Assembly (NCBI GenBank): GCA_951799445.1
Contig: OX637297.1
Location: 1,116,001-1,180,000, forward strand
DNA: 64,000 nt
Direction of reading: 5' to 3'
Origin: Pseudisothecium myosuroides
Lineage: Eukaryota > Streptophyta > Bryopsida > Hypnales > Lembophyllaceae
Under the pieces are notes generated by a model, which was not told where the DNA came from, ran no database searches, and worked only from the letters and a program-made list of their open reading frames with translations. The position numbers and the translations under genes were made by a program. Shown one piece after another: positions 37,881 to 62,272 of the stretch. How positions within the stretch are numbered: the first letter of the stretch is position 1; the number at the start of each line of letters is the position of its first letter.

Positions 37881-37904
37881 ATGCCATATTTAACTACTTC
37901 TGGA
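37881..37904 (+). repeat. Left terminal inverted repeat of giant element
   Basis: A 24-bp exact inverted match to 62249-62272. It runs directly into a perfect hairpin at 37895-37924 (12-bp arms TACTTCTGGACT / AGTCCAGAAGTA, 6-base loop), so terminal and subterminal structures overlap. The right end has only a degenerate version of that hairpin. Confidence 0.85.
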
Positions 37905-37960
37905 CTTTCAATAGTCCAGAAGTAAAGAGGCGGTGAAATCCCCTGATGTTTTCCTATGGA

Positions 37961-38569
37961 TCTGGAGATCTCTTGAAATAGGAACGCTTTGCATGCATCC
38001 AATTCAGCACCCACAAGTATGTCGGGGAGTGCTTCATGTGCTTGGAAATGAAAGAAATTGTGTAGTTGTAACATAGCGGATCCGTGGTAGAGTTCACATG
38101 ATTGTATTGGGAGATCTGTGGACCGAGTTTCCGTAGTTTAGGCATCCAATTTATAGCACAACTGAAGTCTCAGAACCTATCGAGAGATCCCCCGATGACC
38201 ACCACTTGTTGCAAACATGGCTCCCATCCCATATTAATCCCTCAGTGAGCGCTGATCTTCACATAATTCTATCGGGAGATTCCCTGACGGGGGGGTAGAA
38301 TATGAGTCGGCTTCACTGACAATCTTGGTGTCGAAGTGGTACAATTTGATTCCTGTGCTAAAGTGCAAGTGATATCCGAGTTCATCAAGAATGATTCACA
38401 ATAAGGCACGAGGGGGCCGATTCTTTCAAAGATATATGGTATCCCGAGAGTTCAAAGGAAGTACACACAAGTGGATTTGAAATTCAAACATCAGTTGACA
38501 ATTACCAAATGAACAATTGCTCTTGGGAATAAGGAGTCCGGTTCTAGGATTCACCGGGAGATCCCTCGA
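37961..38569. repeat. 16-bp palindrome cluster, left end of element
   Basis: Degenerate copies of TCGTGGGATCCCACGA lie at 37961 (TCTGGAGATCTCTTGA), 38180 (TCGAGAGATCCCCCGA), 38272 (TCGGGAGATTCCCTGA) and 38554 (CCGGGAGATCCCTCGA). All keep the central GAT(C/T) and the outer TC..GA symmetry. No gene is visible between 37.9 and 39.2 kb. Confidence 0.7.
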
Positions 38570-39402
38570 CGGACTGCTAACATAATGGAGCTAAGGTAGT
38601 CAGGATATGACAAAGTGACAGGGGCATATCACAATAACTTACTCACAGTGACATTTGAAGAACTGTAGACCAGTGAGTCACAAGTGCTCAGACGTTCAAC
38701 ATACATCTGAAGATGAATAACGGATAAGTAAACATAATATTCCTCAAAAATAATGACATTAGTTTCAGTTTGTGTAAAGAACATCAAGGTTCTTTCACTG
38801 CAAAAAATAGATCCGTACTTGGTTGTCCGCTATATAATTGTAAAGATGCAAAATCTAGAAGACTAGAATTCCAATAGTGATTAACTGTGAGTGAAAAGAA
38901 ATGCGTTATTCAGACTCATTTGAGTGCGTGTATGACCCGAGCAATGTATTCTGTTCCGGACACAAACATAAACCACTTCCATTTCAGGAAATAAGAGGAA
39001 GAAAGACATCCCACGCTTCTGCTATCAAATCATTGCCCCTCTGCCGCACGCAAAGAATAGAAATCATAAACATATTAATATATTTATAAATATTTATTTT
39101 ACATATACATGTCACAAAAAGCAGCTCTGAAAAATTAATCGAAGAATAGTCCTACTGACTCAACGGACTGTACTTCGAAACCCTCACTTGCGGCTGCACT
39201 TACTGGATGTAGAATGCGTTGTGCGATATCACGATGGCAGTCGTGCCCCGCAAATGCATCGTGACATCTCACAATTGCCGCGACGATTGACACAGTGCAT
39301 CGAGAGTTCCCACGATGGCAGTAGCGACCCCGGACTAGGCACTCAATCATGGGTCCACCACGTTTGCCCGATTCAAATTCACTAAGGCAACCTCCCTACT
39401 CT
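38570..39402. other. Element spacer downstream of the transposase gene
   Basis: No gene is supported. Three more palindrome copies lie at 39229 (TTGTGCGATATCACGA), 39259 (TCGTGACATCTCACAA) and 39300 (TCGAGAGTTCCCACGA), only 30-41 bp apart, just after the end of the transposase-like gene. Confidence 0.6.
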
Positions 39403-42400
39403 TCAGAGGAATCGTCCGTGATTTTTGATCCACTCTCCTGGACCAATTTGCATACACTGCAGCACCCGCGTCCACCCAGGTGGGGGACTTTTTTCAACGA
39501 CCCATTTATCGTACCAGCAATTCCGATAAATCAATTCCAGCCTTGTTTCGGAGTTATCGGGTCGCCAGTACTGAAGCAAGAACTTCCCGTTATTCACATC
39601 TCCTTCCACTCTGCATACAGTAGACAATGCTCTTCCCTGCCAAACAGCACATGATTCCAAGACTTCCAGTCTGACAAGTACCCAACAGCCTGGTCGTATG
39701 TCTAGCCATGGATTAAAGCTTTCCCTTGGGGCTTCATTTGCAGGGCTGCAGTAAGGCTCCGGCTCCTCTTCTTCCTTCGGAATCACGTCCATGGGATTCA
39801 CCGTCGATCCTGGGCGAGGGACTCCATTACGCGCCACCCTCCAATCGTGTTGTGGCCAGAAGCCTTCCACCAACTCCGGAGGACACTCGAGTAATGGTTC
39901 CTTTAGCTCATTGAGAACACACTTCCAGTAATCCACGTATGGACCGAACGCAGTTGCAAATCCCTCGCATTTAGAAATACCGTATTGCCAGTACTGAATG
40001 TATTTCTCAAGTCCTACCAGCATGAAACCCTTGTTCAAGGTAGCTTTCTGCGCCGCATCCCTTGCCTTCTCTTGATTTCCATGCGGTATCGGAACCTCAC
40101 TGCCCCACATGGGCTTAAACGGAACAGGCTTTGGACAGCCATGAGGGAGCATGGGCCAACCATTGTTGTCTGTCTTCCAAATGCGTTCGAAAGGTTTCTT
40201 CGACGGCAACTAGTTTGAATCAACTGCTGACCTTTTTGAAGTTCATGACGGGGACCCCATTAGTGTCTACGTAGAACTTGAACAGGTGCATCTCCCCCAA
40301 TCCAATTAATTTTTCTCCGCGATCACATTGGTAACCCTCCACGAACGACTTGAAATCCCCCACCTCCTGCATGAACTCCGGCATAAATGACAGTTCTTGG
40401 GACTGCATGAAGGCTTTCATGAGGTTAGCGACGACAAAAGTGTTCTTGGTCTTCAGGGCCTTGGAAAGGTGGCTGAAATATGCATTGATGTCCTCGTGAG
40501 TGTGTCCGACTAGTAGAAATCCAACCTGAATTTCCTTGAAGACACCTCGTGCAGTGAGCAAGGATACGAACGCCATCAGAAATTTGTTCTTGTTATCCTT
40601 GGCAGAGTTGTTAAGCTGAAGATATAAATTTTCAGGAAGGGGGGTACTTCCGACCCGAGCTCCAGGTTCGGTGAGGGTTAGACTGTCCATACATCTAGAC
40701 TTTCCTTTAAGCAGTGTCTCGAACAATGAGTCAGCCGGCGGATATGGAAAGAGGTTGCCTGCCTCTCGAATAGGTGGACCCTCCAGCCGGCGCAACAACC
40801 TCGCCAAAGACGAAATGGTGAAGTTGGAGTCCGCCGGCCAGCAAGATGGAGCATAATGGGAGTAAGCACCGTCACCATGGCCATGAGCTACCATTCCAGT
40901 AACGCTCATCGAAAGCTGCCCCAAACCGGCCGTGGCCTTCGTTGTCACCCGGAGTCTGGGTAGAGCCGTCTTGGATGTATCCATCTTGTCGTGAATTATA
41001 CATAAAATTCTTCGAGGATCTCGTTTGGATTCCTCACGCCAAGACGCATACAAACGACGGCAAGAAGCTTGGTGATTCAGATGATGAGTCCGCTGCTTCA
41101 CGAACTCCACGTACTCGGGGCTTCCTTTCGGAGACTTCAAAATAAATTGTTGTAGGTCGTCGCACGTAGTACATTTTGCAAACAAACTTCTGAAAGGCTT
41201 AATGGAGACGTTGTTAAAGTACTCCCGCTTGAGTCTACTAATAGTCGACTGGCTCACGGGCGGCAGACCATAGTCGGCATTCAACTGCAAATCCAGAATT
41301 GGTGCGCTTAAGCATCGATACGAGCAAAGGGGAAGGAATGCAAATGACAAGCAATGCACCAGAACAGTGATCGTGATATCTCACGATCATTGATCTCGTC
41401 GGGAGATCTCACGACCAATAAAGTAGTGACAGGAGATTAGGGGCACTACCTCGTTGGCGTCTGCTCGGACTCGTTTCCAATTTCTTCCGGGAGGAAGGAA
41501 TTATAGAGTGTCCGTTTGCCCGTTCCCGATGCCGCGCATTTGGTGGGGCATTTGATCAGCATTCTTGTCAATAATGGCTTTCATAGTCCCAACGACTTGA
41601 ACAGTCCGAGCCCACGGGCGCTTAACCCCTTTGTTTCCGTGCGTCCCTGATATGACGCTGTTGTTGTACATCTTGATGTAACTGTGGTAAGTGGACTTCG
41701 GGATGCCGTGAATTATGTACCATGCCTTGCCACAAACATCAACTCCCTCTAGCGTGACGTATTTCCGCTTCCGCTCCCCGTACCTTTCGTGTAGTTGTCC
41801 TCCCACTCCAATCCCATATTCACGGCACTCATCAAACGACTTCAAGTAGTACTTTTGCCTTACTAACAGCGTGAACTCCTGGTTATAATGCTGACAACAC
41901 AGACGTCTGCAACACTTCTCCGAGCTGACTTTCCAAATCTCCTCGTCTGCCGTTTTGTGGGAGTACTGCGATTCCTTCAGTTCCAGATTGGATTTGCGAA
42001 CTATAAACCGGTATGGTGCTTTCATTCTACCTCCGAGGTAAGCAAGAGGGTCGTCGATATCGGGAATGGTGGCAAAATGATCCACTGTCTCCTTCAACGA
42101 ACGACCGTTGGGAAACCAACACTCCGAAATTGGCCACCTGTCGTGAGACATTATGGCTTCGGTGTCACCCACAAAAACATCGAGGACTATCACACCTATG
42201 AAACCTTCACCAAGTGTCTCCTCTTGGAAATGATCCTCCGGACTCCAACAAATGATACGACCCGAGGAAACAACAAGGTCGGTCGACGTCCTTCCGATGT
42301 CAAACCAGGCTCTTTGACGAATATACGCTCTAACAACGTCGGCGGCTCTCCACAACACTACATTCTCTTGAACATCCTGTAATGTGTTCATACCCCTCTG

Positions 42401-42691
42401 ACAAGGAAAGCATTTCAAATCCTGGAATTTTAATTTGATAGAATGAGGTCGCACCAGAATGTAAATCTAAGGCTCAACAGGTATGGGCACACCCAGCCAC
42501 TAGCCCTAGGGACGAACCTCTTTAACGATTCCTGATCCAACTTCACCGAATCCAGGCACAAACAGCTTAACCCAATCACCATTCACAAATGCTTCACATC
42601 CACCGGTGGAATCCTATGATTCACCCTCTACATGCGTTCCGTCCACATACGGAACTATTGCGTCAACAGCAGACTCACAGAATGAATCCAT
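39403..42691 (-). pseudogene. Giant-element transposase-like gene, inactivated
   Basis: Exon 1 runs from ATG (42689-42691) to a GTAGTG donor after 41450. A 165-bp intron (41285-41449) follows, and exon 2 starts at 41284. Exon 1 (414 codons) contains CCRRLCCQHYNQEFTLL and GKAWYIIHGIPKSTYHSY (helix-turn-helix-like). Exon 2 contains TISRLKREYFNN, IIHDKMD (about residue 513), LQLNNSAKDNKNK (about 639) and GHTHEDINAYFSHLSK (about 675). From memory, related repeat proteins (DUF7869-type) read LQLD at the second site, so the presumed catalytic Asp is Asn here (codon 40610-40612). Breaks are TAG at 42614, 42506, 42500 and 42467, TAA at 41501, a frameshift in the A-run complementary to 40233-40237, and TAG at 40210. 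The C-terminal part (39403-40209) holds GFWPQHDW and a WVLVR..VWQGRALS domain. A role as the element's recombinase is inferred. Confidence 0.75.
41285..41449 (-). other. Transposase intron with two palindrome copies
   Basis: GTAGTG donor and TTTGCAG acceptor. The palindrome is present at 41371 (TCGTGATATCTCACGA) and 41399 (TCGGGAGATCTCACGA), 28 bp apart. Confidence 0.75.
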
Positions 42692-42852
42692 TGTTAGAGT
42701 GAGCTCTATCGAATCCCTTGGACGAGATTAAAACGATCCGTAAAACCTGTACATCATACATTCAAGGAGTTAGGCATGTCTACAGAAGAGCGCTGCATTC
42801 ATGGCATTGTAACCTCACGACATGAAGGACAGAAGCATCAACGTCTGTACAG

Positions 42853-43533
42853 TCGTGGGAACTCACGATCACATGGCAACGCAACATGAACAAGTGAATC
42901 TAGTTACTGTCAACAAGAAGTTTGAAAGCCCAGACGCAATAGTGCGATCTCACGAGGGTCGTTCTAGAATCACTGGGAAGAAGCCAAGGCATCCAGGAAA
43001 ACGTCGCAGAAGTTTAGAAGACATTAACCAAAGAACGTTCAGTACATTGTGGGATCCCACGACACTCTTGGCGCTCAATCACTTAAACCAGAGATCGCGG
43101 TATTCCAAGATCCTCCTAAGGGATCACATAGACCGCTACAGAAATACAAATGAAGTAGTGGGTCAAATTGAATCACTCTGACAAGTCCCCGACATATTAT
43201 CAATCAATCGTGGGATCCCACGAGTTCGGTATCGTGTAAATTCCGAAAGAGTGTTTAGCGTACCCCCCCGAGTAGGAGAACCTGGTGCCAACCGAAAATG
43301 TGATCGTGAGATCCCACGATGCTTATACAAGATCGACGAGGAGTATGACGGTCATCAAAAAGTAAGGCACCTAGACGTACACCAAGAAGGCCACAGCCAA
43401 GGTTCAATCGATCGATGGGATCCCACGACAAAATGATAGGAGTTCCCTCGACTACCAGACCGCGATATCTCTCTACTCGAAGACTGAGAGGTCTCGCCCA
43501 CGCTCAATACGCGGAGATTGTGGGATCTCACGA
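42853..43533. repeat. Palindrome cluster upstream of the transposase gene
   Basis: Seven copies at 42853, 42940, 43047, 43208 (perfect TCGTGGGATCCCACGA), 43304, 43413 and 43518, typically about 90-110 bp apart, with one gap of 161 bp. They lie 5' of the transposase start at 42691, where a promoter is expected. The intervening DNA is unique and non-coding. Confidence 0.85.
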
Positions 43534-45350
43534 TGCTTACGTATGTTGGATATATACACATATTCTACTATCGTAGACCAACGTATCTACAAAAGATTGT
43601 GAAATTAGGTTTCCTGTCACTGGTTTTATGGCATTCGACACTCTATAACTATTCTCAGTTACTGTACAAAAATTCTCTACTTTTAAAGTGGATTTTGCTG
43701 TAATTCAGACTCCTGAACCTCCATGGGTACAATAGGAAACGTTCTTAGAAGTAGTTGAATTTGATGGTTGGGTTTTCCTCATGTAAGTTCGCCTAATTCC
43801 TAACGCAACCTAATTTCATTACTTTGTAAAGACGTTCTGACCGGTTGTCATCCACATACAAGGTTCTCATATCAACTTGCCCTTAGGGTAGTGCCGTCCC
43901 GCGATTCAAAAGGAACCTCGATGTCACCACAACATGGTGATCCCTTAAGCACATGAGTTTTTCGCAAAATGAGACCAATGTGCGAAGAAAATTATCGCAG
44001 TCAGACTCCATTTCACTCTCAATCTATGACATCCTCAGTTTGTGACAGAATGCAGTGGCGTCAATTCGACTACAAAATCCTCAACATTCGGAATCGCATA
44101 ACACTTGCAAGGGATGCATTCTTACCTTGCAGCAACTGGCTTGGTCAGAACTTCGTGCGCCTCCACGCCCACTCTGTCGCCAACGTCGGCAGACACCCAC
44201 TCGCCACTCCGCAGCCTGCTCCGCCTGTTCACGTGTGCAATCGAAAAGAGCAAGCTCCAGGTTCTTTTCGGGTTATGAACCACGTGGTTGGTTGGAATTC
44301 TTCAGCTCTGAATTCCCGTCGCGAATTTTGAAATCACCAAGCGATCCTTGATTTCAAATGTTGGATGCGTTCTTGAATGTCGTGCCACAATCAACAACGG
44401 CTGGGGGGTACGTGCGGTCCTTCACTTCGGAAGTTGATTGCATTCTCAAATTCCGCGCATCTCCGACTACAAGGAGGAGAGGGCGTGGGGCTCTTGACTT
44501 TCTGACTGGAACTTCGCAAATCCAGACTTCACTGAAATTCCGATTCTTCACTGACATTTTGAAATTCGCCGCATTCAAGGATGGTATCGTTGCACCGTTT
44601 TCTAGGAGTCAATGATGCTTTGACCAAAGCGGATCAAACTCTGAAGACTTTCACTTCACAAAATGTCGCACACTTCCCCGATCAATACTCGGAATTCTTC
44701 CCCTACACGACCTGATTATACGTATCCTACAGAAACGAACTGTACAAAATCTCATGAACCCAAAAACTTGAGCACCTGAAACATGTGGAACACCTCACTT
44801 ACAAAAAGAATCAACAAAAATTTTGAACTCTCGAATGTTCATATTTGTTATTTTCTATTCCAATGAATGCAATCTTAGGGTCTAGGGTCTACAGTCATAG
44901 GGTCTACAGTCCACGGTCATAGGGTTTAGGGTACATGTTGTACTATAGTGTTCACGATTTCAAGGTCATGGTTCTTCGTTTCAGGGTTCAGGGTTTCAAG
45001 CTTTAATAAGGTGTAGGGTATACAGTGGCAGCACTTTACATTAACGTTTTCAGGGTCTGCAGTTCATGGTTTACGACTTTTAGGGTTTAGGGTATTATGA
45101 AAAATGAAAATGACGCTAATTATTTGTTTTTAATTTTTTCCTCAATTAAGTTTACGTCATCTCAGACTGGGAACATATAAACTTAAAATTCAATCTAACT
45201 CAATATTGCTAAATAAAAATGTCAGTTAACAGATTGATTTCATATATAATTCTTGTTATGTAGTACAACATCCTATGGTTTGATATGGGACTTTACGGAT
45301 TAAACAATGATTGACACAATTTTTATTTCATCTAGGAATTTTTAAATAAA
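43534..45350. other. Element interior, no gene supported
   Basis: A minus-strand frame near 44320-44600 contains SSSQKVKSPTPSPP, similar to the KSPTPSP stretch in the 53700 exon, but its splice limits are unclear. From 44874 to 45095 there are about ten degenerate TTTAGGG-like units (AGGGTCTAGGGTCTACAGTC and similar). The palindrome is absent here. Confidence 0.45.
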
Positions 45351-45353
45351 GCA

Positions 45354-45510
45354 CCAGGGGCTTTTTTGCGTTTCCCTCTCTCATTTTTCCCTACGTAAAC
45401 GGCAATCCATGACTTCTCCTTGTGTCACAATCCGTTGACACAAGGAAAAGTCATAAGATTGCTGTTTACATAGGGGAAAGTGAGAGAGGGAAATGCAAAA
45501 AAGCCCCTTG
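45354..45510. mobile_element. Snapback hairpin MITE, about 157 bp
   Basis: The left arm starts CAGGGGCTTTTTTGCGTTTC and ends TTGTGTCA. After the 8-base loop CAATCCGT, the right arm returns almost completely complementary to GCAAAAAAGCCCCTTG. The whole unit would fold into one long hairpin of about 72 bp. There is no coding capacity. Confidence 0.85.
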
Positions 45511-45575
45511 TGAAGGACTTTGGATGTGCAATCATGATGGAACAAAGAACAAACTGAACCATTATTTATTTTGTG

Positions 45576-46250
45576 TTTAGATTCCATCACTATTTTTACT
45601 TCTTGCCCGTTGGAAAATCCATCTTAACGTGAATTAAAAAAAATGGGGAATAAAATTAATGGGCCCTACCATGAAATGGCTTCATTTTAAAAATGTCATG
45701 GATGGTTCATACATGCATGCATAAAATTCTATCGTGGAAGTTGGAATTGCTCTCAGGATTTAGATTCCACCACTATTTTTACTTCTTGCCCATTGGAAAA
45801 TCCATCTTAACGTGAATTAAAAAAAATGGGGAATAAAAATATTGAGCGCTGGCATGAAATGGTTTCATTTTAAAAATGTCATGGATGGTTCATGCATGCA
45901 TGCATAAAATTCTATCGTGGAAGTTGGAATTGCTCTTATGATTTAGATTCCACCACTATATTCACTTCTTGCCCATTGAAAAATTCTAATTCACGTGAAT
46001 TAAAAAAAATGGGGAATAAAACTAATGGGCCTTGCCATGGAATGGCTTCATTTTAAAAATGTCATGGATCGTTTATACATGCACGCATAAAATTCTATCG
46101 TGGAAGTTGGAATTGAGCTTAGGATTTAGATTCCACCACTATTTTTACTTCTTGCCCGTTGGAAAATCCATCTTTACGTGAATTAAAAAAATTGGAGAAT
46201 GAAATGGGCCTTGCTATGGAATGGCTTCATTTTAAAAATGTCTGGCAATT
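45576..46250. repeat. 183-bp satellite, about 3.7 units
   Basis: TTTAGATTCCA recurs at 45576, 45759, 45942 and 46125, exactly 183 bp apart each time. Units share CTTCTTGCCC.TTGGAAAATC, GGCTTCATTTTAAAAATGTC and TCTATCGTGGAAGTTGGAAT and differ by a few substitutions. Confidence 0.95.
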
Positions 46251-46267
46251 TCATACATAAGACAGTG

Positions 46268-49070: not shown

Positions 49071-49330
49071 GTAAGTTACTTTGAACTATATTCTCATTAC
49101 TTTCCATTTCTTGCTTGCAATGTCTAGGTTATAGACATTGCTAATAATTAGGGTATGGCTGTTTGCAATTGCATTGTTATGCACTCCGCTGAAAATGAGG
49201 GTAATAGAGCCTCTGTCATAGTCGCTGTTATAAACATAGCTAAGAAATACGGTAGTACATATGCCGAGAAGAACACACGGTAATGAGTACGTGACCCTAT
49301 TACCGGGGATAGTGACCCTAAAACCGTGCA

Positions 49331-50000
49331 TCGTGGGATCCCACGATAAGGCAATCCCTGTGTAGATTTGAGCATCGTAGGATCCCTGACTTGAAATCCT
49401 AGCGGCCGACCACTGCGCCGCCACACGAGTTTTAGGGTTTGTGGCCCATCATGGGATCCCCCGATGATAAGATGTGGAGACGCAAACTATACCCAGACCA
49501 CATATTAGGCACAGACCAGGCAACGGATTAGTAACCCATCGTGGGATCCCCCAATGGAGGATAGTAAAGACCGCGCCTGACCTAGACTTAACAATTAGAA
49601 GACCACCTACTTAGAGCATTCAAGTACTAAACCGTTGTGGGAAATCACGACGAGAAAGTCTAGCGTGGGTAGAGAAATTGAGATGAAGGCGCGTTAACAA
49701 ATAGCGTTGATTATATGAACAATCAATCGTGGGATCCCACGACAGACAGTAGTTTCACAGATTATCAACGATCTACTTTTAAGATATTCCAATCTCTATT
49801 CTATGTTCATTAGTGCCGTCGTCATATGCCAGGACGCCTTCAGTTAGTGAGTTGAGATGCAGTAACCTCGTGCCCACTACTGTCCGTGAATGTAACTGAT
49901 CGTGATATCCCACGACAACGGTAATTTGTGAAACCAGATCATCAAAGTGATCACGAAACCATTCCTTCTCTTTCATAACATCCGTCGTAGGATCCCACGA
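49331..50000. repeat. Palindrome cluster in intron 2 of the ParB-like gene
   Basis: Copies occur at 49331 and 49727 (both perfect TCGTGGGATCCCACGA), 49449, 49539, 49635, 49900 and 49985, with a weaker one at 49375. Most neighbours are about 85-120 bp apart. The DNA between them is not repeated, so the palindrome itself, not a larger unit, is conserved. Confidence 0.9.
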
Positions 50001-50099
50001 CTAAGGATAAAAATTAAAGTTAGAACGGGAATAATATCGCACCACCATCTGCTCTATTGGACAATGTGGAAACTAACATCTCTTTCTACCATGCTGCAG

Positions 50100-51420
50100 T
50101 GAAATGCAAGTCGACGAAGGTCCAGAAGAACTGACACCAAGGAAGCTTGGTACCTTCATCGACTGCTACATTACGTCTTTGGAGTACACAAGTCCACATC
50201 CACCACAAGCCTTTTTCCGATGCGACGAGCAGATTACACATTGGGGAATCGCCTAGAAAGCAGAGAGTGACGGCTCCGCCATTATTCTTCCTACGCTGGT
50301 GAATGGGACGATGGGGCACCCGACTGCCGGACTGAGGGTACTTGAAATGAAGGGGCTTGACGACGACACAACGCTCCTAGTTGTAGAGGAGAAGGTTCCC
50401 CTTTCCGGGGAGATCATAACGTTTGGGCTGATCCTTGACTACGCGAAGTTCAGCCTCACTTTGTACGAGTCTGTGACTGCAAGGGCACATCTGATGTGCA
50501 AAGACACGTCTAAGCCTCGGTGGAAGCCTAAGGAGCTGAAGAACCAGTGGGACATAATTATGGAAGACTTACGAGATACGAACGCTCCCCCCCAAGCCGT
50601 GACAGAGATACGAACGCCGTCCCCCAAAAAGAAGACCAGGAAGAGGAGGTTTGCAGTTGGAGCTCCCGGGGACAAAGATGATGCCGTAGCAGGGACATTC
50701 GGAAAGAAGAAAAAACCGGATACCCCGCTTCCGCTTCACAGGGCTGTGGCTCTAGAGGAGGCAGATGTGAAGAAGATGACACTGGAAGAGATGAATAAGA
50801 TGAGGACCTTCTACGAGAAGTCCTTTGGTTGCCTGTACAAATGGGGCAGGAAACCAATTTGTGACAGCAAAGGAGAGCTCATCCGCGTGCACTATGACTA
50901 TTTGCACCAGGCACCTGTAGCACTGTTCGTGTACAGGGGAATTCAGGCAGAGCAGCTTGATGCGCTGACGTGGAAGGCACAAATCACACCTGATTATAAC
51001 TCGGAGAACAGAGTCATAATAGTGCTTCCTCTTAAAGTGGGACCTTACGGCCCGACGAAAGTAGTGTCGCACTATGAGAAGCAAGCGCCGAAGAAGAAGA
51101 TATTTGAAAACCCCAAGACGCACTACTACATAATAGGTGGCCAACACAGTGTCCAGGCATTCAAGGACCTGATTAGGCTTGGTGTGATTCCCGAGAAGGA
51201 TAAGAAACAAGCCTCCACCTTTAATATTTTACCTGTGTGGACGGACAAAGATCACCACGGAGACCTAGTGCACTTCTCGCGGGTGCTGAACCACGATGTC
51301 GTTGGCGAACAGAAGGAGCAGAACTTCACGAAGCAGTTGCTGAACGCAAGAATCAAATGGCGGAGTATGGGAAGTCCACAGCCAACACTATTGGGCAGAG
51401 CACACTCGCAAGAGTACAAT
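50100..51420 (+). pseudogene. ParB-like gene, exon 3 (ParB/Srx-like domain)
   Basis: The exon runs from a GCTGCAG acceptor to a GTAAGA donor, open except for TAG at 50254-50256 (fits CAG). The first about 130 codons are followed by a basic linker (PSPKKKTRKRRFAVGAPG), then a domain with the order expected of ParB N-terminal folds: KAQITPDYNSENRVIIVLPL, then THYYIIGGQHSVQAFKDL (position of the ParB GERR box), then IPEKDKKQASTFNILPVW and HFSRVLNHDVV, ending LLNARIKWRSMG. ParB-like folds bind nucleotide and DNA or act as nucleases in other systems. Here the GGQHS box replaces GxRR, so CTP binding is uncertain. The family call is by pattern only. The palindromes in the neighbouring introns suggest a DNA-binding role (inference). 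Confidence 0.6.
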
Positions 51421-51487
51421 GTAAGAATGACGCCGGAGTAGAAAAAATTAATGTTTTTAGGTCATCAGAGTGTCCTCTACCTAAACA

Positions 51488-51805
51488 TTGTGGGATCTCC
51501 CGATGGTCCTGCACTACACCTCAGACCTTCATTACATTAGAACCTCGTCATTGTGGGATCCCACGACTAAGTCCTGGCTTTGCAATACGTGATAGTTCTA
51601 TGTTAGAATGAGGAGATCGTGATATCCCACGACGTTAACTTATGAAATACCAGATGGCGCTAGTTTAGTTTTTTGTGCTGGGGGTTCAGTCCGTGGTGTT
51701 TTCAAATTGTGCATGTAGAAGATAGTGGCTCATCGTGATATTTCACAATTGCCTATTGCCTAAACGACTTCTTCGTGGTAACTGACTGATCGTGGGATCG
51801 CACGA
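51488..51805. repeat. Palindrome cluster in intron 3 of the ParB-like gene
   Basis: Five copies at 51488, 51551, 51617, 51733 and 51790. Spacings of 63, 66, 116 and 57 bp are close to multiples of about 60 bp. Confidence 0.9.
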
Positions 51806-51880
51806 CTGTTTATTGGACTTCTTGTGTTCACGTTGTCTGTCTACAGATCGCGTACTGACTGTTACTCCTTTGTTGGGCAG

Positions 51881-53240
51881 GCTTTTCAGCCGTCGGTGGC
51901 ATCAATATTTGCGGGAACAAAGGCGAAAGACATTGCCGAATTGAGAATCCCTCTACTCTTCTTGGAGAACGACGCTAATGTTCAGAGATGGATCAAGATA
52001 AAGGAGAGATTTATGGCAGGTCTCCTTCCCGACGCGGCGGGGCTGGTCAATGTATCCGGGAGTACGAATCGCTAACCGTTGGCGGCAAACAACTTCAAGC
52101 CCCTTTACGGACTTAGACCGTAGGACATCAATTTCCTTGTGGATCAAGTCGAATCCCAAGTGGTCAGCATGAAGACCTTCGTTGCAAAGTCAAAATCACA
52201 GAGAGGTGAAAAACGCATTATCTCTCTTGCAGACGTCGACGCCAAAATTTGGTTGGTTAGGGCGATGAAGAACCAACTCTTGTCACATTACAAGGGTCAT
52301 TTGCTGCTCGTGAGGATGGTGGAGTACGAGCCTTACCCGGACTCTTTGTGGGTCGAGTTTGCGACAGAAAAGAACATTTAGCCCAAGGATGTGGATATGT
52401 GGGTGAACAAGGCAATGGAGACCATTTGTTGGCAAAAAGTGGTTGCAGGACCGGACGAGAAATCTCAACAGGATGTTCGACCCAGCTGACCTTCCGCAGT
52501 CGGTGATTCATATGTGAGAGTCGTATTTCAAGCTGATGGTAGAGGAGGAATCGGTGTAGGCAAATGCACGTGGTTTTTCAGAGCACTATCTTTGTAAAAC
52601 CATGGACGAAAGCAACTGGGACATCAACGCCACCTTGGCGGCAGGGGACGTCATAGCGTGGAGGGGAAAGAAGAAGCAGCACTTGTACATCTGGTTCATG
52701 TACGAGTCAACGTCCTGCGGGTGTCGCGCCAAAATTCTTGAAGAGCGGAAGTTGAAGAGACTCTTTGACGCTCTGGAGTACTATGATCCGCAGGACCAGA
52801 CAGTCGTAGCCCGCTCTGTCGCCGTTCTCCTCACAGATGTCGAAGGGTTCCACATGATTGTGGCTCACCTAGAGAAACGAAGGATGGAAGTCAAAGCTAG
52901 GTTGTGGGACTGGCACGTTGTGAACTACATGGCAGAGCCCGAAGACTTCTTCCCTCAAGCTCCGGCCGGAGATGGGTACAATGTCTTTGTTGTCTTCATT
53001 TTTGGGCACAGCAAAGAGCACGACCGGCGAACTTGCTTCAAAAGCTTCTTCCCGGGATTGGACCGCCTCACTCAGGTGTACAAGGCGGAAGATATGCCGG
53101 ACGACTACCCTTACTGGCGTCAGCAGCAAATGTCGTATCTGAAGATCAGCAGTGCGTTGATTCTATTCGAAGGACTAGCTTACACCGACTATGTCTTTGT
53201 CAATGTCAACGGGGGTCCGGAGTTCACATATTTAGGCTTG
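51881..53240 (+). pseudogene. ParB-like gene, exon 4
   Basis: The exon begins after TTGGGCAG in phase 0, continuing exon 3 (AFQPSVASIFAGTKAKDIAE), and ends at a GTATGC donor. It includes KSKSQRGEKRIISLADVDAK, KTMDESNWDINATLAAGDVI, LLTDVEGFHMIVAHLEKRRM and DYVFVNVNGGPEFTYLGL. In-frame stops are TAA 52073, TAG 52121, TAG 52379, TGA 52515 and TAG 52557, and a frameshift lies near 52430-52445. Each stop is one C-to-T or G-to-A step from a sense codon. The fold is not recognised; it is long and globular in composition. Confidence 0.6.
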
Positions 53241-53340: not shown

Positions 53341-53560
53341 TATTCGGAAGGTGGTAAAGTGTTGGAAGTTGTAGATTTAGCGGAAGCTAAAACGTTAAGT
53401 CAGGTCTTCGCCAAGCAGATTTGGGACGACAAACATGCGCAGGCGGCACCCCTTCCTCTTCCGGAGGCCGAACACGAGGACGAGGAAGTTGAGAGTGATG
53501 ATGAAGCTGCTGTAGTTGAAGACATCACCCAACACAGACCAAGTTTAGGAACAAGGTCGG
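53341..53560 (+). pseudogene. ParB-like gene, acidic exon
   Basis: A TGTATTTCAG acceptor is followed in phase by YSEGGKVLEVVDLAEAKTLS and an acidic run (EAEHEDEEVESDDEAAVVED). The 3' limit is uncertain: the same frame stays open to 53739, and a palindrome copy at 53601 (TCGTGATATCTCCGGA) lies just beyond, probably in an intron. Confidence 0.5.
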
Positions 53561-53699
53561 TTGAGCACCCTAAGATTAGTGTGCATTATTTGCTGAACCA
53601 TCGTGATATCTCCGGACGTTGGGCAGCATATATCTGTGATATGCAATTCAGGGAGGGCAAACTGAGCTCAATTGTGGTGGGATATTGCCTTTCTCGCAG

Positions 53700-55481
53700 G
53701 CGAAATCTCCGACTCCCTCCCCCCGGCGAGAGCAGCTGATTGATCCGCCAAGTACAGCGGAGGATGCTGACGAAGTTCCCGAAGTTCATTTGGCACAAGC
53801 GGAGCTGGAAGAGCTGACAGAGCAGCATGAGAGTATTCCAGAGCCGTTACCAGCCGAAAGAATTGTAATTCCAATATCGAGCGGGTCGTCAAGCAAAGTG
53901 AATTCAGGGATCCAATTAACGGACCCAAGGATATCCAAGAGGAAGCCGCGTAAGAAGCCGGTCAAGGAACCTGACATTGCAAAAGATACCGGGAGCACAA
54001 AGGCGTCCAAGCTAGTGCGGAAGACAACAGGCAAAAATTGAAAGGGGGGAACCTTGAAGTGGACTCCAAGTAAGTCGTTGGTGGAGCGCAAACAGTCGCC
54101 AGTGAAGCCGACTGGGAGTCCGAATCCCGAAGCATCAGTCGCAGAAGACACGCTTCTGACTTGTGCCTTGGGACCGTTACCGTCGAAGTCTGACAAGTCA
54201 ACTCAGCCGCAACAGGAGGATGAGCAGGTATCTTGTGCTTCAGGAGTTGACAGACAGCTACCGGACCTCGTCTTATTAACCCTGGGGGACACTCACCGAC
54301 CAACATCGGGGGATCCCACAATGACGAAGGAGTCACTGGTCAGGAGCGGGGAGGATGCGGCCGACCTCAGCGAGGGGAGGAAAGAGTCGAAGGGGGATGA
54401 TGACCACCTCGGATCGGGGGATGCCACGATGACGCAAGAGTCTGATGTCGGGAGGCGGGACAGTGACTCCGGACCTACCCCGGAGAGGGAACACGCAAAG
54501 GGTAGCACTGGAAAACCTGCATCGGGGGATCCCACGATGAGCCATGCATTACCTGTCCAGATTGAGTTAGCTGTCCCTCAATGTGGAGCAGGGAAGGATG
54601 ACCGAGGCCGGACACCGGGACCTGAAGGATCGGGGGATCCCACGATCCTGAAGAGTCAGTGGTCTCAATTCAACATGGCGATCCGACGGAGAGCGAGGGG
54701 GTTGAACACCAGGAAGGAGTGGTTGCATTGTCTTTGTCGGGGGATCACACAACGGTGCCAGAGCGATTGCTCCCGCCAATGGGCATCACGGTTGCTCTAC
54801 TGAACGATACCTTTGTTGACTTGGTCCCTGTGAGTCTCAAACCTGTTCCTGGAAGGAAGAGTAAACCTGTCATAGGGCGGGCGAGGATTGTCAACATTGC
54901 TTCACTGGCCTCCAGTGTTCCACTGGAGGTTGTAAGAGAGGTGGTTCTTGATGACGGTGAGTGCAATTCTGACAAAGTTTTGGAGGCCTTACCTTACGAG
55001 GCCCAAGAAATAATGAAGTTCTGTCTTGTCGATCGTATGAGAGCATTTGGTCATTTACCGAGTCTAAACCACTATGGGAAGATGCGTCTGGATACCGACA
55101 AGAAAATTCATTTGGAATCCATAAGGCGAGCGAACCGTTTCCTTTACAAGCCCGTCTTTAAATGGATATTTCAAGATGGTCCGCGTGCAATGTATGAAGG
55201 AGGGGATCCACCTGATAGAGACGACGAGTGGGAGGCAGTGGAACGCGGCGTTAGAGGGAGGAGGGTGGTGCCTTCGAGCGACGACGAGCTTGAGACGGGA
55301 TCTGTGAATGTTGACAAGGGGGAAAGAGGACCAGTGAGCGCTGACGAGAGAGGAAAGTTGCAAATGCTCGTCGAGAGGAGGGGGGAAGGATCAGTGAGCG
55401 ACGGCGAGAAGGAAAGAAGACGATTGGGCGACGAAAGGAGGGGGGAAGGGTTGCCAGCTTGTAGCGTCCGAGCTCCCGCAG
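53700..55481 (+). pseudogene. ParB-like gene, disordered exon with 108-bp repeats
   Basis: A TTCTCGCAG acceptor opens a Ser/Pro/charged exon (KSPTPSPRREQ, RKPRKKPVKEPD) that ends at a GTAACA donor. TGA at 54039-54041 fits CGA. Between 54306 and 54752 the frame encodes spaced SGDPTM-like motifs, each written by the palindrome. A one-base deletion between 54630 and 54737 shifts the frame (0 to 2). After it comes a more folded segment (VSLKPVPGRKSKPVIGRARI, LPYEAQEIMKFCLVDRMRAF) and then acidic/arginine repeats (ERRGEGSVSDGEKERRR). It is probably a DNA- or protein-binding tail; no family is recognised. Confidence 0.5.
54306..54752 (+). repeat. Five palindromes at 108-bp spacing inside coding sequence
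   Basis: Copies start at 54306, 54414, 54522, 54630 and 54737, giving spacings of 108, 108, 108 and 107 bp. 108 bp is 36 codons. The roughly 92 bp between copies are highly diverged, while the 16-bp core (TCGGGGGATCCCACGA and variants) is kept. The single 107-bp spacing coincides with the reading-frame shift. Confidence 0.95.
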
Positions 55482-55581
55482 GTAACATGCCTACATTATT
55501 GTCAATGTACATACGAGATAACGAATCTTGAATTGGCCGGTCACTGACTCTGTGCTTCTCTTGTATTCTGTAGTTTTTTGA

Positions 55582-56226
55582 GTGCCTACTGAACCGGTGG
55601 CGAAGTCGTCGAATCAGATAGAAAGGTGGCGGTATTATGTGGTCCTTGACCTTAATGGAGTTCTTGTTCACAGGTCATTCAATGAGTTGAATAGACGCAT
55701 CGTAACACTTCGACCGAATGTTGGTCAGTTACTTGACTATGTGCACAGATATGCAAACATTGCTTTCTAGAGCAGTTTGACACCGGCAAATGTGACGAAG
55801 GTATTGAATCAAATGCTGTCGGGGACGTCTGTTAAGGCGAAGCACGTGCCTGTTCTCATGCAGGAAGACTGCACAAAGTCGTCCTATAGAGACCCCAAAC
55901 ACCCGGATAGGCCCTACTTCCTGAAGGATCTAAATCATTTCGCGACTAAGCTGGGTTTGAGGTCAACCGAGAATGTTCTCCTCGTTGATGACGATCCACT
56001 TAAAAACCTCCTGAACAATTGTCATAGCACCATTTTCCCCCGCAAATTTGAAGGGGACTGTAAAGAGCAGTACCTTGTAGGGGTGCTCAGTCCTTGGCTC
56101 GCACGTCTGTTTAATTCACAAAAAGCTGTGCCGGCGTATGTCAAGAAGCATCCGCTCCACAATGGTCTGCCATCGGCGGTCCCGTTGACCAGATCGGGCT
56201 CTGACATTTTGAGGGCAGTAGTTTAG
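55582..56226 (+). pseudogene. NIF/FCP1-like HAD phosphatase module 1
   Basis: After a TTCTGTAG acceptor near 55573 the frame reads WRYYVVLDLNGVLVHRSFNE, RPNVGQLLDYVHRYANIAF, then TAG (55768-55770, fits Trp), SSLTPANVTKVLNQML, YFLKDLNHFATKLGL and VLLVDDDPLKNLLNN, ending at TAG 56224. The order matches CTD-phosphatase-like HAD proteins: nucleophile loop, cap-side WSS motif, DDDP metal site. The nucleophile loop is DLNG rather than DxDxT, a variant I recall in plant homologues, so full catalysis is uncertain. It may be the C-terminal domain of the ParB-like protein or a separate gene; the exon upstream ends at 55481. Confidence 0.7.
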
Positions 56227-57118: not shown

Positions 57119-60100
57119 GTCACCCTAAACCTTTTTTTGTATTTGACGCAAATCCTAAATCTGCATTGTCGTAACACAGCAAAGCACAAATCCCTCCCTT
57201 AGGTGCTAAAGTAGTGTAAAACACCTTAGATGACTCGTGTATCGTTCCCACAGGATTTTAACTCGTAGTTTCCTCAAAATTCCCGGAACAGGATCCGGAA
57301 CACAAAACCAAAGACAAACAAAATCCGGAAATAAGATGTAGAATTAGACTTCCCGATCTGTATTCGTTTAACTTTCGTTTGTATCAACCTAGCTCTCAAA
57401 CATATTACCAATCAACAAGGAATAGATCGGCAATCCTTCACAATAGTAGTAGCAACTTAGTATCCGGCTTAACTAAATGCAGAACCGGAAAGAGTGTCTT
57501 GATCTTGTACCTTTCCCGGATCCGGATCTAGCAAGCAATGCGAACAAGGGTAGAGTTTAACCTCTACATCAGAGGGTTCCGCTCTTGGACTTAAGGAAGG
57601 ACACGTAAATCCTACCCTCCACTGGTTTAAAGTGGTTGAAGTTCCACTAAAAGAGAAATAACAAAGAAAAACAAAGAAAACCAAGAATACCGGAAGGCAA
57701 GTATTTCCTCACAGCTGATCCGGGAAGTTACTCCAGACAAGAAGGTCACTCAGGAAACCCCTACTATCCCACTTACTACAATGACAGACTCTGCCAAAAC
57801 ATGGTTCCCAGAGCAGAGCTAGTACCAACTAACTAAAGGATCCCAACTACTTTCCAGTTCCTCTCTTCCGGTAACAGCAAGACCTCATCAAACGTCGGTT
57901 AGCATTCGTACTTCAACCCAAAGAACTCACCCAACCTAGGAACGGCTATCTCACTCAGAAGACCCTCAAGGAAAATCAGCAGATGAAACTACCCTTTAGT
58001 ATGCCAGTTCTTCGTAAACCAACTCCTAATACTCCCAGAACCGGATCCAGACAGAATCCGGGGGTCATCTATTCTTCTCCAACACCTGCAAACCAGCTAC
58101 CCGCATTACCAATGCTTAACACACTGATGGCATACCAACACAAACTGAGACTTTTCAGACTAGTACTTGCGAAGTGGAAATCTGAAATCAATTTACAGAG
58201 TACTGAAAAATATACATAAGAATACCCGGGGCTTCAAACCAAAATCAGCCCCCTAAATACCAAACACCCAGAGACCCCTAAAGGCCCCTGGGAATCAAAA
58301 GGAAAGGACCAGAGAATGACACCTGTCATTCCCCTTATCCTTCCCACGTTGACTTTCCTACCACAACCCGCCGATCCGCAAAATGTGGATCTCAGATCCT
58401 AAAAACCCGGAAAGTGAAGTCCAGGTTCATCCAACTGAAAAGCAGCTAACTGACTGCTTTCTACCTATCAAAAACTTGAGTTTTAATACTAACCATGCTA
58501 GGGTCAACTCAAGGAACTACCTAACTACTTCTTCTGCCGCTTCGGAGAAGGTGCCTCCAACTTGACAGCTCCTTTCCGGGCTGGCTGTTTCCTGCTGGGC
58601 GATGGTTTGGGTGGCTTGGGATACTTCCCCTTTGTTGCTGAGGCCGTCTTACCCTTGAATTGCGAAGGCGAGATGGTCTCCATGTCTGTATCCTCTTCCG
58701 ATTCAGAGCCCGGATGTGACTCGGACTGGGAACCGGATCCCGACTGGCTGCCCTCCTGTGCTGAGTTACTTGGCGACTCGCCTTCCTTTGAATGATGACT
58801 AGCAGAAGTCGCCTCCCTTCTTCTTTTTGGTGTTGTCTTCTTCTTTGTGGTGCTGGGCATTGTTGGAGATGGCTTCGAATCCTTGCTCGGGGGTGTCCCA
58901 AGTTCTGATCCGGACTTCCGGGCCTTCTCCTTGGATCCGGATCCATGCCCTGATCCTTCTCCTCCTTCTGACTTCCGCTTAGAAGTTTCCTTTGCGGGTG
59001 TCTTCTCCTCCTTGGGCTTACTCTTCGGCTTTACATTCGCTGGGGGCGACATTGGCACCTTCTTGGAACCTTTGAACAACCCCGATTCTTGAAGTACATC
59101 CCGGATCTCGAACATGAATTTCTCCGTGACATCAGAATACTCAGCCAGAACTTCTACTGACTTGACTGTTGCCTCTGACCCGGCCTTATGGATCCCCTCA
59201 TCGAATAATTTGGCCTTGTTAATCACATTTCCCGAATTTGACACAAAAGCCCTAACTCTACGGAGGGTCTCCTCAACCTCTGGGGAAAGTTTCTTTCCCT
59301 TCTTACTCTCCTCAAGTTCCCGGGTTAGTTCCTGGTTCTGCTCAGTCAACTCCTTAACCCGGGATTCCCACTTCCGGTTCTCTCTATCTCGGAGTAAATC
59401 CTCAATCCTCTTAGCGAGTTCAGATGCGTTTATTCCCCCTAGCAGCCCACATGCACTCTTGACTGCTTTTCTCTCCACATCTAACTCCTCTCTGAGCCTC
59501 TCTAGATCCTCAATGATTCTACCTAGCGGTTTATCCTGGGGATCTTTCTCATCCGGGGATTCCTCACTCTTATTCCCCTTCTTCTTCTCTGAGGCTGGAA
59601 TCTTTTCTGGGGTTTTCTCTTCCTCTTCTGAGGATTCTCTCTCGGATCCCTCGTCATTCTCTTCCTCTACCTCTTCTTCTCCCTTTGGAGTGATGTTCAG
59701 TTTCATAAACGTGGCGGCAGCCTTATAGGCAGTTCTCTCCGGGCCTCTCAAAGTTCCTAAATACTCATAGAGGTGAAATATAAACGGCCCTATTGTTGTC
59801 GCCTTGGTATTTCCTAAGGATGAGACCATCTTGGTCACTCTCTCCTTAACAATACCAGCCCAGAAAACCTTTCTATCTCCACTCAGTGCCCCAAATATTG
59901 TGTTGGCCCAGGTTAATGTAATCCTGGTCGGCCGTTTCGGGTACAAGATTGGGAGCAGGAACTCTAACACTCTCTTCTCCCTCTGATCCTTGCAATCCGC
60001 TACGGTGTACCCATCATTGCCATGAGGGGCTTCAGAGAACTTACCCTCATGAAACTTGAGCGTCCGGGACGCCATCCCCTCTCCCGGTCTTGGAAAATTG

Positions 60101-61094
60101 TATACCCGTTTCCAGGTATCGACAGTCCAACTGCTGGGAAGAGCCCGGGAAGTCTTTTCCCATTCGTTTGATTGATCCCTCATTAACTCCCGGATCATGT
60201 CCTTATTTCTCAGCTTCCAGGGTCGTTGCAGAAAGTTCACACACCCCATCTGCGCGAGGTCTTCCTCCAACTGTTTCCGGTAACCCGGATCTTGCGGGAT
60301 GATTGGAACAACGTTCCTGAACTTCAAAGTAACAGCTCTGCTCCCTTCGCCCTTCACCATTGCACTCAAACTCCCACAAGATACCCTCAAAAACAATCCT
60401 CACACAGTCCCTCACTAAAGCAAAACTGCAGAGTTCTCTTTCCCAGTCCTATCTCTCTCTTGGGTCCGGGAAACTTGGAGCTCTTTCTCTCTTTGCAACT
60501 TGACTCTACACACAACGACTCCAAGCGCTCCAAGGTCTCTACAATCCTCCAACTGAGAAGTGAGAGAAGAAAATCCGACCCCTGGGTCTTCTCTCCCGTC
60601 CAGCCGCTTTCCAGCCGTTAGGGTTTCCCGTTAGGGTTTCCCGTTAGGGTTTTCCGTTCCCGCTGAAATCCCGGAGGATTGTGACCGTTAAACGGTCTTC
60701 CTTATCTTCCGGTAGAGCCATTGGATCGCAGAATTGCCCTAACGGCTTCTTCTGGGATCTCCGGTATCCTCTGGTATCCTCCGGTACATGTTTATACCCG
60801 GCCCCGGTATATTGAACAAGTCCAGATTCACCCACCGGTTCCGTATCCGGTTCTGGATATCTCGATAAATCAGGGAATCTAATTTCCCCTTCTTAACCTA
60901 TTTATCTATTTACTATTATCCTATAATGGAAAAATCTTAATTTTGGTAAAACTCCTATCTAAGCCTTGTAAAAAGCTAAAAATTTTACCATTTCTCACTC
61001 CTTCTTTTAAATTCTTAGCTAACTAACCTTATCCTTACATTTTGTGCTCCCACATGCATCCCTTGTTAGTGCTGTATTCTGGGTTGCAGTGACA
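57119..61094. mobile_element. Nested insertion carrying an intact ORF
   Basis: Compared with the surrounding element, this block lacks the palindrome, is enriched in CCGGA, and contains one undamaged gene (58525-60360). Short inverted ends TGTCAC (57119) and GTGACA (61089) could mark its limits, but no target duplication or long terminal repeats were found, so the borders are approximate. Left of the gene (57.2-58.5 kb) nothing coding is supported. Three tandem units of CGTTAGGGTTTCC lie at about 60615-60656, upstream of the gene. Confidence 0.5.
58525..60360 (-). CDS. Intact 611-residue coiled-coil ORF of nested element
   Basis: ATG at 60358-60360 starts 611 codons with no interruption; the frame is also open upstream to a TTG at 60396, but ATG is preferred. 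Residues 1-240 form a globular domain (LEEDLAQMGCVNFLQRPWKL, SWTVDTWKRVYNFPRPGEGM, RTLKFHEGKF, WANTIFGALSGDRKVFWAGI). Residues about 240-300 are highly acidic and Lys-rich, and about 300-400 a coiled coil (IIEDLERLREELDVERKAVK, ELTEQNQELTRELEESKKGK). The tail is Ser/Lys/Pro-rich and disordered, ending KRQKK. The arrangement resembles retroelement gag-like or envelope-position plant ORFs, but I do not recognise the family. Undamaged coding among pseudogenes marks a younger insertion. The plus-strand frames across it are shadows. Confidence 0.75.
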   Translation of the reverse strand: MVKGEGSRAVTLKFRNVVPIIPQDPGYRKQLEEDLAQMGCVNFLQRPWKLRNKDMIRELMRDQSNEWEKTSRALPSSWTVDTWKRVYNFPRPGEGMASRTLKFHEGKFSEAPHGNDGYTVADCKDQREKRVLEFLLPILYPKRPTRITLTWANTIFGALSGDRKVFWAGIVKERVTKMVSSLGNTKATTIGPFIFHLYEYLGTLRGPERTAYKAAATFMKLNITPKGEEEVEEENDEGSERESSEEEEKTPEKIPASEKKKGNKSEESPDEKDPQDKPLGRIIEDLERLREELDVERKAVKSACGLLGGINASELAKRIEDLLRDRENRKWESRVKELTEQNQELTRELEESKKGKKLSPEVEETLRRVRAFVSNSGNVINKAKLFDEGIHKAGSEATVKSVEVLAEYSDVTEKFMFEIRDVLQESGLFKGSKKVPMSPPANVKPKSKPKEEKTPAKETSKRKSEGGEGSGHGSGSKEKARKSGSELGTPPSKDSKPSPTMPSTTKKKTTPKRRREATSASHHSKEGESPSNSAQEGSQSGSGSQSESHPGSESEEDTDMETISPSQFKGKTASATKGKYPKPPKPSPSRKQPARKGAVKLEAPSPKRQKK

Positions 61095-61212
61095 CCGTAG
61101 AAGTATTGCTAATTTCCTTGTACTATGCAGCAAATAAGACATTCAGTCGCTGTTCTTCAAATAACTACCCATGCGTATTTTCAATTAGCGGTTCTGTTGT
61201 ATTGCATATTGG

Positions 61213-61228
61213 TCGGGGGATCTCACGA
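61213..61228. repeat. Palindrome copy upstream of module 2
   Basis: TCGGGGGATCTCACGA, in the likely intron just before the exon at 61291. A weaker copy lies at 62111 (TCGGGAAATCTCCAGA), about 140 bp inside the right end of the element. Confidence 0.8.
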
Positions 61229-61290
61229 TCAATTGACGTCGTTTTCTGTATGTACATGTCTGTGTGCTGAGGCTTATTTGGTCTTTGCAG

Positions 61291-61773
61291 AAGGCGATGC
61301 TCTTAGTACTAACAGGGGATCTCTGCGTGAAGGGCTGTGTGGCAGATCTCCCACAGAATATCAAAATTTGGCTCGGCTTCCGTGGTCTTCTCCGACATTT
61401 CGTTGAAGAAACTCACTGTAGTTTGTGGTCCGCAATGCAACCTTCAACACTCGCCGCTCTTCTTCGACGTATTCTACCGCCGGAAATTCTGTCAAGGTTT
61501 CTATTTTTTGCCGGGTCTAACAATCCACGGAAGAACCAGGTGTATCCCCATCGTCGTGCAATACTGAAGACTGTCTTGAACATTCCTCGGACGCACAGGG
61601 TACTCTTGAATAACAGTGTTGTAATGCTTGTCCTAGATCCTCTTGATTGGGAACGTCCGCACTTGCTTCGACCGGCGTTGCATGTGAGGGATGATGTAGA
61701 TCCTGTAGAGTTAGATCGTCCGCACATTATAGCACCGCCTTTTGATTGGTCTTGGGCCCCAAAAAACATGTAG
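61291..61773 (+). pseudogene. NIF/FCP1-like HAD module 2 (last exon)
   Basis: A GTCTTTGCAG acceptor opens 160 codons to TAG: MLLVLTGDLCVKGCVADLPQ, KIWLGFRGLLRHFVEETHCS, LWSAMQPSTLAALLRRILPP, EILSRFLFFAGSN, HRVLLNNSVVMLVLDPLDWE. The order (hydrophobic strand and nucleophile loop, RPG-like segment, LWSAM, FLFFAG, LV.D.. loop) parallels module 1. The nucleophile Asp position reads LVLTGD and the metal loop LVLDPLD, so it is unlikely to be an active phosphatase. No internal stop is seen. It lies 5 kb beyond module 1 because of the nested insertion; the 5' exons are not identified. Confidence 0.55.
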
Positions 61774-62248
61774 TTGGAAGTAGACTAGTTGGGTTATTTA
61801 TCATAATTATGCCTATAGGGCACCTGTTTGTTGCATCCAAATGATTATATAAGTGGCGAATCCACCTTTCCTATCTAACTGTGATTACACCTTACCAAAT
61901 GTCTGTAATTGCATTATGTTGCTTCATCAAATCTTTTGTGTTATGTGATACTTTGGGAAGTATCTTCTGAGCTCTCCCGATCTGTGATGTCGCATATTAA
62001 TGCAACCCCGGATACAAATGTACCGCTTACAGCAAATGTCGGAGTTGACATCATCTCAAATTCATTGATTTGTTCGAACACTCTATCCCGAAGGAGTATA
62101 TTTCCTTGCATCGGGAAATCTCCAGACCACTTAGCATCCCAAAGTTGTTTAAATCTCCTTTGAACGGCATTACGGACTCATTGTACATACCTTCGAGAAG
62201 ATCTTCCGATGGACAGGACCTTCACAAAGTCCAGAATTCCTCGTAAAT
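61774..62248. other. Right subterminal region of giant element
   Basis: No gene is supported. It contains a weak palindrome copy at 62111 and two AGTCCAGAATTCC/TTCCAGAAG-type motifs next to the terminal repeat, a decayed counterpart of the hairpin at the left end. Confidence 0.5.
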
Positions 62249-62272
62249 TCCAGAAGTAGTTAAATATGGCAT
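62249..62272 (-). repeat. Right terminal inverted repeat of giant element
   Basis: Exact reverse complement of 37881-37904. It is followed by CATAATGG, duplicating the CATA that precedes the left repeat. Confidence 0.85.

Follow-up and report, generated by a model that had tools for sequence, protein, structure and literature searches.

A giant DUF7869 transposon with a predicted ParB-fold gene and dispersed palindromes in the moss Pseudisothecium myosuroides

Introduction

What kind of mobile element occupies more than 20 kb of a moss genome between perfect 24-bp inverted repeats and carries, besides a transposase-like gene, a ParB-like gene and numerous palindromes? The question is raised by positions 37881 to 62272 of a stretch of 64,000 nucleotides, hereafter called the window, from Pseudisothecium myosuroides (Bryopsida, Hypnales; assembly GCA_951799445.1, contig OX637297.1, positions 1,116,001 to 1,180,000 of the forward strand), which a preliminary description of the bare sequence had put forward as a giant transposon with terminal inverted repeats (TIRs). 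The element is a real giant transposon, which has recently multiplied. Beyond this, we consider it rather probable that it represents a giant cut-and-paste DUF7869 family of about 21 kb, probably of the Sola superfamily, with an element-encoded protein of predicted ParB fold that most likely serves as a palindrome-based regulator.

Borders, target duplication and empty site

The borders of the window copy and its uninterrupted counterpart are as follows.

37877..37880, no strand: left target-site duplication CATA, from flank comparison
37881..37904, plus strand: left 24-bp terminal inverted repeat, perfect match to the inverted right end
37881..62272, no strand: giant DUF7869 transposon, window copy, 24,392 bp, from termini and comparison with other copies
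62249..62272, minus strand: right 24-bp terminal inverted repeat, perfect match to the inverted left end
62273..62276, no strand: right target-site duplication CATA, from flank comparison
63393..63802, plus strand: copy of the flanking repeat without interruption, serving as paralogous empty site with the junction near 63633

Exact-match and inverted-repeat scans of the window confirmed the positions proposed for the perfect repeat, as the only exact matches of the terminus ATGCCATATTTAACTACTTCTGGA in the window are those at 37881-37904 and, in inverted orientation, at 62249-62272, and the proposed duplication CATA indeed flanks both ends. When the flanks are joined minus one CATA, they are identical to the repeat copy at 63393-63802 in 346/412 positions (84%), with an alignment that is gapless at the junction and has its two gaps elsewhere. 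The uninterrupted empty site described near 63640 thus holds across the junction, but as the copy reads TTTCCCATTATGAAAAAC, two substitutions away from the string given earlier, the site is paralogous and not letter-identical. Similarly, the proposed size of 24.4 kb fits the window copy but not the intact unit, which is about 21.15 kb because the segment 57167-61054, a nested insertion of 3,888 bp, is absent from the five other full copies compared.

Copies in the host genome

At no more than one mismatch, the terminus has 469 matches (231 + 238) in the 388-Mb host assembly while the reversed control has none, which excludes a chance origin of the termini. The pairing analysis took in 100 listed places of these 469, all perfect matches, among which neighbours form 37 convergent pairs less than 100 kb apart, four divergent pairs and one tandem pair; 31 of the 37 convergent pairs are spaced by 20.8-26.3 kb. 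The genome search for paired termini, named beforehand as a test, has consequently delivered many pairs at similar spacing, and a constant target duplication, likewise anticipated for other copies, was encountered as an exact 4-bp duplication of varied sequence in all 20 pairs whose flanks were examined among the 31. If most termini pair up, the family may comprise some 200 copies and account for about 1% of the genome, figures that are estimated and not counted.

Five further full copies, c1 to c5, were read and compared with the window copy. While c1 to c4 measure 21,146-21,155 bp, c5, which carries a separate insertion, reaches 24,629 bp. The mutual identity of c1, c3, c4 and c5 is 98.3-99.0%, c2 is about 96% identical to these, and the window copy shares 91-96% identity over long blocks with all five, with genes and palindromes common to them, so that the interiors are related as had been predicted. 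Inverted termini, a target duplication of constant length, many copies and an empty site together characterize the element as a TIR cut-and-paste transposon.

The DUF7869 transposase

Which enzyme would move such an element? The candidate gene lies in the left part of the element.

39347..41284, minus strand: transposase exon 2 with stop (DUF7869; predicted catalytic core), decayed in the window copy
41285..41449, minus strand: transposase intron, inferred GT-AG, 165 bp, with two palindromes inside
41450..42691, minus strand: transposase exon 1, broken in the window copy

In the window copy, exon 2 shows frame breaks and the second catalytic Asp reads Asn, and exon 1 has a stop at 41501-41503 among other changes; exon 2 is open in copies c2 and c4. 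Pfam assigns the protein to DUF7869 alone, and the predicted fold, which also resembles integrases, contains an RNase H-like DDD core, in support of the label transposase-like that the gene had received. When 30 transposase sequences were aligned and placed on the RNase H-like predicted fold, D99 was nearly invariant and D225 and D265 were invariant. These observations suggest a transposase of DDD type with predicted catalytic activity, and that DUF7869 may perform cut-and-paste transposition.

Two protein searches, including that with the transposase, scored the 7,999 and 7,996 candidates with most shared words. The nearest named relatives of the transposase are found in the mosses Physcomitrium patens (49%) and Ceratodon purpureus (48-49%), closer relatives show 69-77% identity and more distant ones occur in a liverwort and a clam. 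No relative was confirmed in viral contigs scanned with the transposase alignment, and Foldseek returned nothing at E<=0.001 for the models of the transposase and the ParB-like protein.

The ParB-like gene

The second gene is read in the opposite direction and is composed of several coding blocks.

50107..51426, plus strand: exon with the predicted ParB-CTPase fold in the second gene, 442 aa long in c1 and c4
51879..53240, plus strand: ParB-like gene, second coding block, to which Pfam assigns no family over cut-off
53668..55485, plus strand: third coding block, start approximate, palindromes at a 108-bp repeat inside, 606-aa stop-to-stop frame in c1 and c2
55575..56223, plus strand: NIF/HAD phosphatase-like exon, motif DLNGVL in c2 and c4

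The designation ParB-like is borne out by a ParB-CTPase-fold domain in the predicted structure. A dN/dS of 0.11 between c2 and c4, derived from small pairwise counts, makes the gene look maintained by purifying selection. With respect to the two phosphatase-like modules claimed in the preliminary description, one only was recovered, the NIF/HAD exon, with a Pfam match of 3.6e-13 in copy c2. A profile search found no sequence in the Protein Data Bank (PDB) for the ParB-like proteins and none was found for the NIF/HAD exon, while a single weak match of the second coding block (E 0.15) was discounted. As a search of proteins 0.55-1.75 times as long returned no relative for the second gene, roughly joined into one protein with one short exon omitted, it is the inferred splicing that would unite the ParB-like and NIF/HAD parts in one protein.

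Palindromes within the element

An 18-bp palindrome, ATCGTGGGATCCCACGAT, occurs at 28-33 sites per copy at no more than four mismatches in all six copies, compared with 0 sites in 39,608 bp of window flank and an average of 0 in 20 shuffles of c4. In the window, 23 matches at no more than three mismatches stand against 0.01 expected. On the transposase side the sites are placed upstream of the gene, in the intron and just after the gene end, and on the ParB-like side upstream of the gene, in the first inferred intron and at a spacing of about 108 bp in a coding block.

42852..43534, no strand: 8 palindromes (<=5 mismatches) clustered upstream of the transposase gene
49330..50001, no strand: 7 palindromes (<=5 mismatches) clustered upstream of the ParB-like gene
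51487..51806, no strand: 5 palindromes (<=5 mismatches) clustered in the first intron inferred for the ParB-like gene
54305..54753, no strand: palindromes spaced by 107-108 bp within a coding block (54305, 54413, 54521, 54629, 54736)

The assembly contains 173 perfect palindromes (control 0). Among the 50 of these listed, 28 are situated within 25 kb of a listed perfect terminus, compared with 1.45% of C1-C4. Outside coding sequence, the conservation of palindrome bases exceeds that of their flanks only slightly. The ParB-fold protein may load on or bind the palindromes.

Sister loci and a second DUF7869 family

Do related elements combine the same two features? Three diverged ParB-like loci (L072, L073 and L074; 48-50% amino acid identity) were read, each over 6-6.5 kb. 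Immediately on either side of the ParB exon there are 8 sites of ATCGGGAGATCTCCCGAT in L072 and 6 of ACCGTGATATATCACGGT in L074, numbers matched by 0/100 shuffles in either case, whereas the 2 identical sites after the ParB exon of L073 are not beyond chance. Nine 6-kb control pieces have 0-2 sites each. The sister motifs were picked from the same loci, which was allowed for by taking the best palindrome in every shuffle too. The motifs are related, with 9 sites of the c4 piece also fitting the L072 motif at no more than five mismatches; a related but different palindrome family is thus present at the same places in two of the three sister loci. Besides its 18-bp palindrome family, L074 contains the exact palindrome GTTCCGGAAC twice, at 1579 and 5588.

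A second DUF7869 family (G000; loci L064-L071 and L075-L094) has a 634-aa frame and the terminus ATGGTCAATTTCGTTAAAATGGCG, with 2,353 genome matches (1,208 + 1,145) at no more than two mismatches and a control of 0. Among the 45 perfect matches listed there are 17 pairs of 33.1-47.8 kb, 7 of them of 44.28-44.57 kb; of nine pairs fetched, seven show an exact 4-bp duplication and two none. A comparison of two copies of about 44 kb over 24.2 kb gave an identity of 99.87%, and this shared part holds no ParB-like frame, nor did the 16.2 kb scanned for the palindrome give a match at no more than five mismatches. One frame of the family matches the Plavaka transposase (2.3e-18). At least 13 pairs of less than 200 bp are found among the 100 ATGGTCAATTTCGTTAAAATGGCG places listed, and the two that were read (153 and 195 bp) both carry 4-bp duplications, which demonstrates miniature derivatives of this family.

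Proposed mechanism and alternatives

How might transposase, ParB-fold protein and palindromes work together? An element-encoded DDD transposase of RNase H fold would recognize the two termini of 24 bp, cut the element out and integrate it by a staggered cut of 4 bp. The ParB-CTPase-fold protein would act as a sequence-specific regulator, comparable to KorB or VANC, and set whether the element is expressed or silenced; its sites would be the approximately 30 lineage-specific palindromes, many of which stand at the promoters and in the introns of both genes. Tentatively, and with somewhat less than even confidence, we extend this to a transposon that has evolved its own ParB-parS-like (KorB-operator-like) system, in which a nucleotide switch acting on about 30 family-specific palindromes across 21 kb would control expression, escape from silencing or transposition assembly, and in which the protein and the palindromes would have changed jointly from one sister family to another.

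An alternative, which we regard as unlikely, is that in the same transposon the palindromes constitute distributed internal transposase sites and the ParB-fold gene is an unrelated accessory. The sites in the intron, in the promoter and just past the end of the transposase gene are compatible with such a role, and the second DUF7869 family, with its different transposase, is without the palindrome in the part scanned. However, transposase sites would be expected to gather at the ends, which the palindromes do not: of 37 sites in c4 at no more than five mismatches, the first 1.3 kb holds only 2 and the last 1 kb holds none. Moreover, in the sister loci the palindromes flank the ParB-like exon, the only part read.

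Somewhat less probable still is a structural role, whereby a ParB-like clamp would load at the palindromes and gather the element for synapsis of ends 21 kb apart or for handling of an excised circle. While the ParB-type fold, the many dispersed palindromes and the unusual length would suit this function, the DUF7869 family of 33-48 kb is without either feature in the part examined; a circle or replication function was sought through scans of open reading frames (ORFs) alone.

We give even less credit to the palindromes as targets of a host DNA-binding or chromatin factor, that is as silencing or insulator sites. Plant hosts do silence transposons, the sites are found at promoters and introns and the sister motifs have much of their frame in common. 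A host factor nevertheless predicts one motif, but at equivalent positions the sister families have different best motifs, and such a factor also predicts more sites outside the element than the clustering of 28 of the 50 listed perfect palindromes near termini leaves. An integrated virus or a chimeric assembly, suggested by large size and unusual gene content, is barely credible, as no polymerase or capsid family was seen among the ORFs scanned and 20 pairs at separate places each carry their own 4-bp duplication, which excludes an assembly artefact.

Relationship to known elements and regulators

To which superfamily does the transposon with its putative ParB-fold regulator belong? In reviews, Sola elements are characterized by a 4-bp target duplication, a DDD-type transposase and TIRs of variable length, with Sola1 present in Physcomitrella, and by a size of mostly 2-9 kb with some over 15 kb (PMC10741241, PMC9033089). 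The present element equally combines a 4-bp duplication (20/20 pairs and the window copy) with a predicted DDD-type core and a moss host. On the other hand, what these reviews describe, the sole basis of the comparison, includes no mention of a ParB-fold gene or of dispersed palindromes. The preliminary description could match the cargo to no known plant superfamily; by description, not by sequence, the element probably belongs to the Sola superfamily.

CACTA elements have a 2-3 bp duplication and CACTA ends; with its 4-bp duplication and ATGCC ends, the element was rejected as a member. For Ginger, characterized by a Gypsy-integrase-like protein, the observations point in different directions: DUF7869 is the only Pfam family assigned to the transposase, yet the predicted fold also resembles that of integrases. 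Maverick/Polinton elements, with genes for DNA polymerase B and capsid and a 6-bp duplication, were likewise rejected, given the 4-bp duplication and no DNA polymerase B or capsid family among the part of the ORFs scanned. Readings as a virus, Starship or Polinton were dismissed as their hallmark genes were not found among the ORFs scanned. Size and the presence of several genes are the likeness to Starships, Teratorn, Maverick/Polinton and large Helitrons, which depend on other recombinases or polymerases (cf. PMC6431247).

The likeness to VANDAL with its VANC protein consists in a family-specific repeated motif at the element's promoters and introns (beyond chance in two of three sister loci, with related motifs). 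VANDAL elements possess a Mutator-type transposase and a longer target duplication. Membership of Mutator/VANDAL was rejected with the 4-bp duplication in 20/20 pairs versus 7-12 bp for Mutator (PMC10741241, PMC9033089). VANC motifs of Arabidopsis VANDAL are short, noncoding, located in introns and upstream, partly tandem and family-specific, and evolve with the protein (PMC5735166); 'palindrom' is absent from the main text of that paper, whereas the motif here is palindromic. No VANC-related Pfam match was seen in the second gene.

KorB represses via 16-bp OB sites that can be close to promoters or distant from them (PMC11790492). The predicted ParB-CTPase fold and palindromic sites at promoters are common ground with KorB and ParB, whereas here the sites are of 18 bp and other sequence, the host is eukaryotic, the gene bears introns and is linked to a NIF/HAD exon, and a DNA-binding domain and a ParA partner were not identified in the element. 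According to a survey of the ParB fold from 2025, the form most often met in eukaryotes is sulfiredoxin; the terms plant, transpos, fung and moss do not occur in the main text of that survey (PMC12704722). In the open-access literature searched, no paper was found with the term DUF7869, and none was recognized as describing this element.

In our judgement, giant DNA transposons of 21 to 48 kb in tens to hundreds of near-alike copies are unusual for a plant, and their clean ends, duplications and some apparently open transposase frames make them directly testable. A ParB fold apparently under purifying selection in a plant transposon would extend a bacterial fold of segregation and gene control to eukaryotic mobile DNA, and the matched family-specific palindromes may offer a natural experiment on the joint change of specificity of transposons and regulators. 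DUF7869, a domain of unknown function, gains a likely role as a transposase.

Nested insertion, internal repeats and surroundings

Two further features are located inside the borders.

57167..61054, no strand: nested insertion, not part of the element proper, TG...CA ends, TGCAT duplicated, 3,888 bp
45576..46242, no strand: 183-bp tandem array inside the element, longer in other copies

The nested insertion holds a 624-aa frame of unassigned kind on the minus strand (58525-60399), and self-BLAST found no long terminal repeats in it. The tandem array, variable in copy number, is followed by an inverted-repeat pair at 46281-47428 (125 nt, 86%), and both lie in the central noncoding region of the element.

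Rfam at the gathering threshold and a tRNA scan were both empty for the window. Outside the element, a large foldback-like inverted repeat at 6231-7634 has arms of 455 nt (98%) built on 176-177 bp repeats. RING-finger-like frames are present at 35642-36343, just over one Pfam cut-off, and at 14825-15478, below it. The segment 31542-32759 represents a fragment of a tnp2 (CACTA-type) transposase, in which the frame 32250-32756 matches Pfam Transposase_21 with 4.4e-42.
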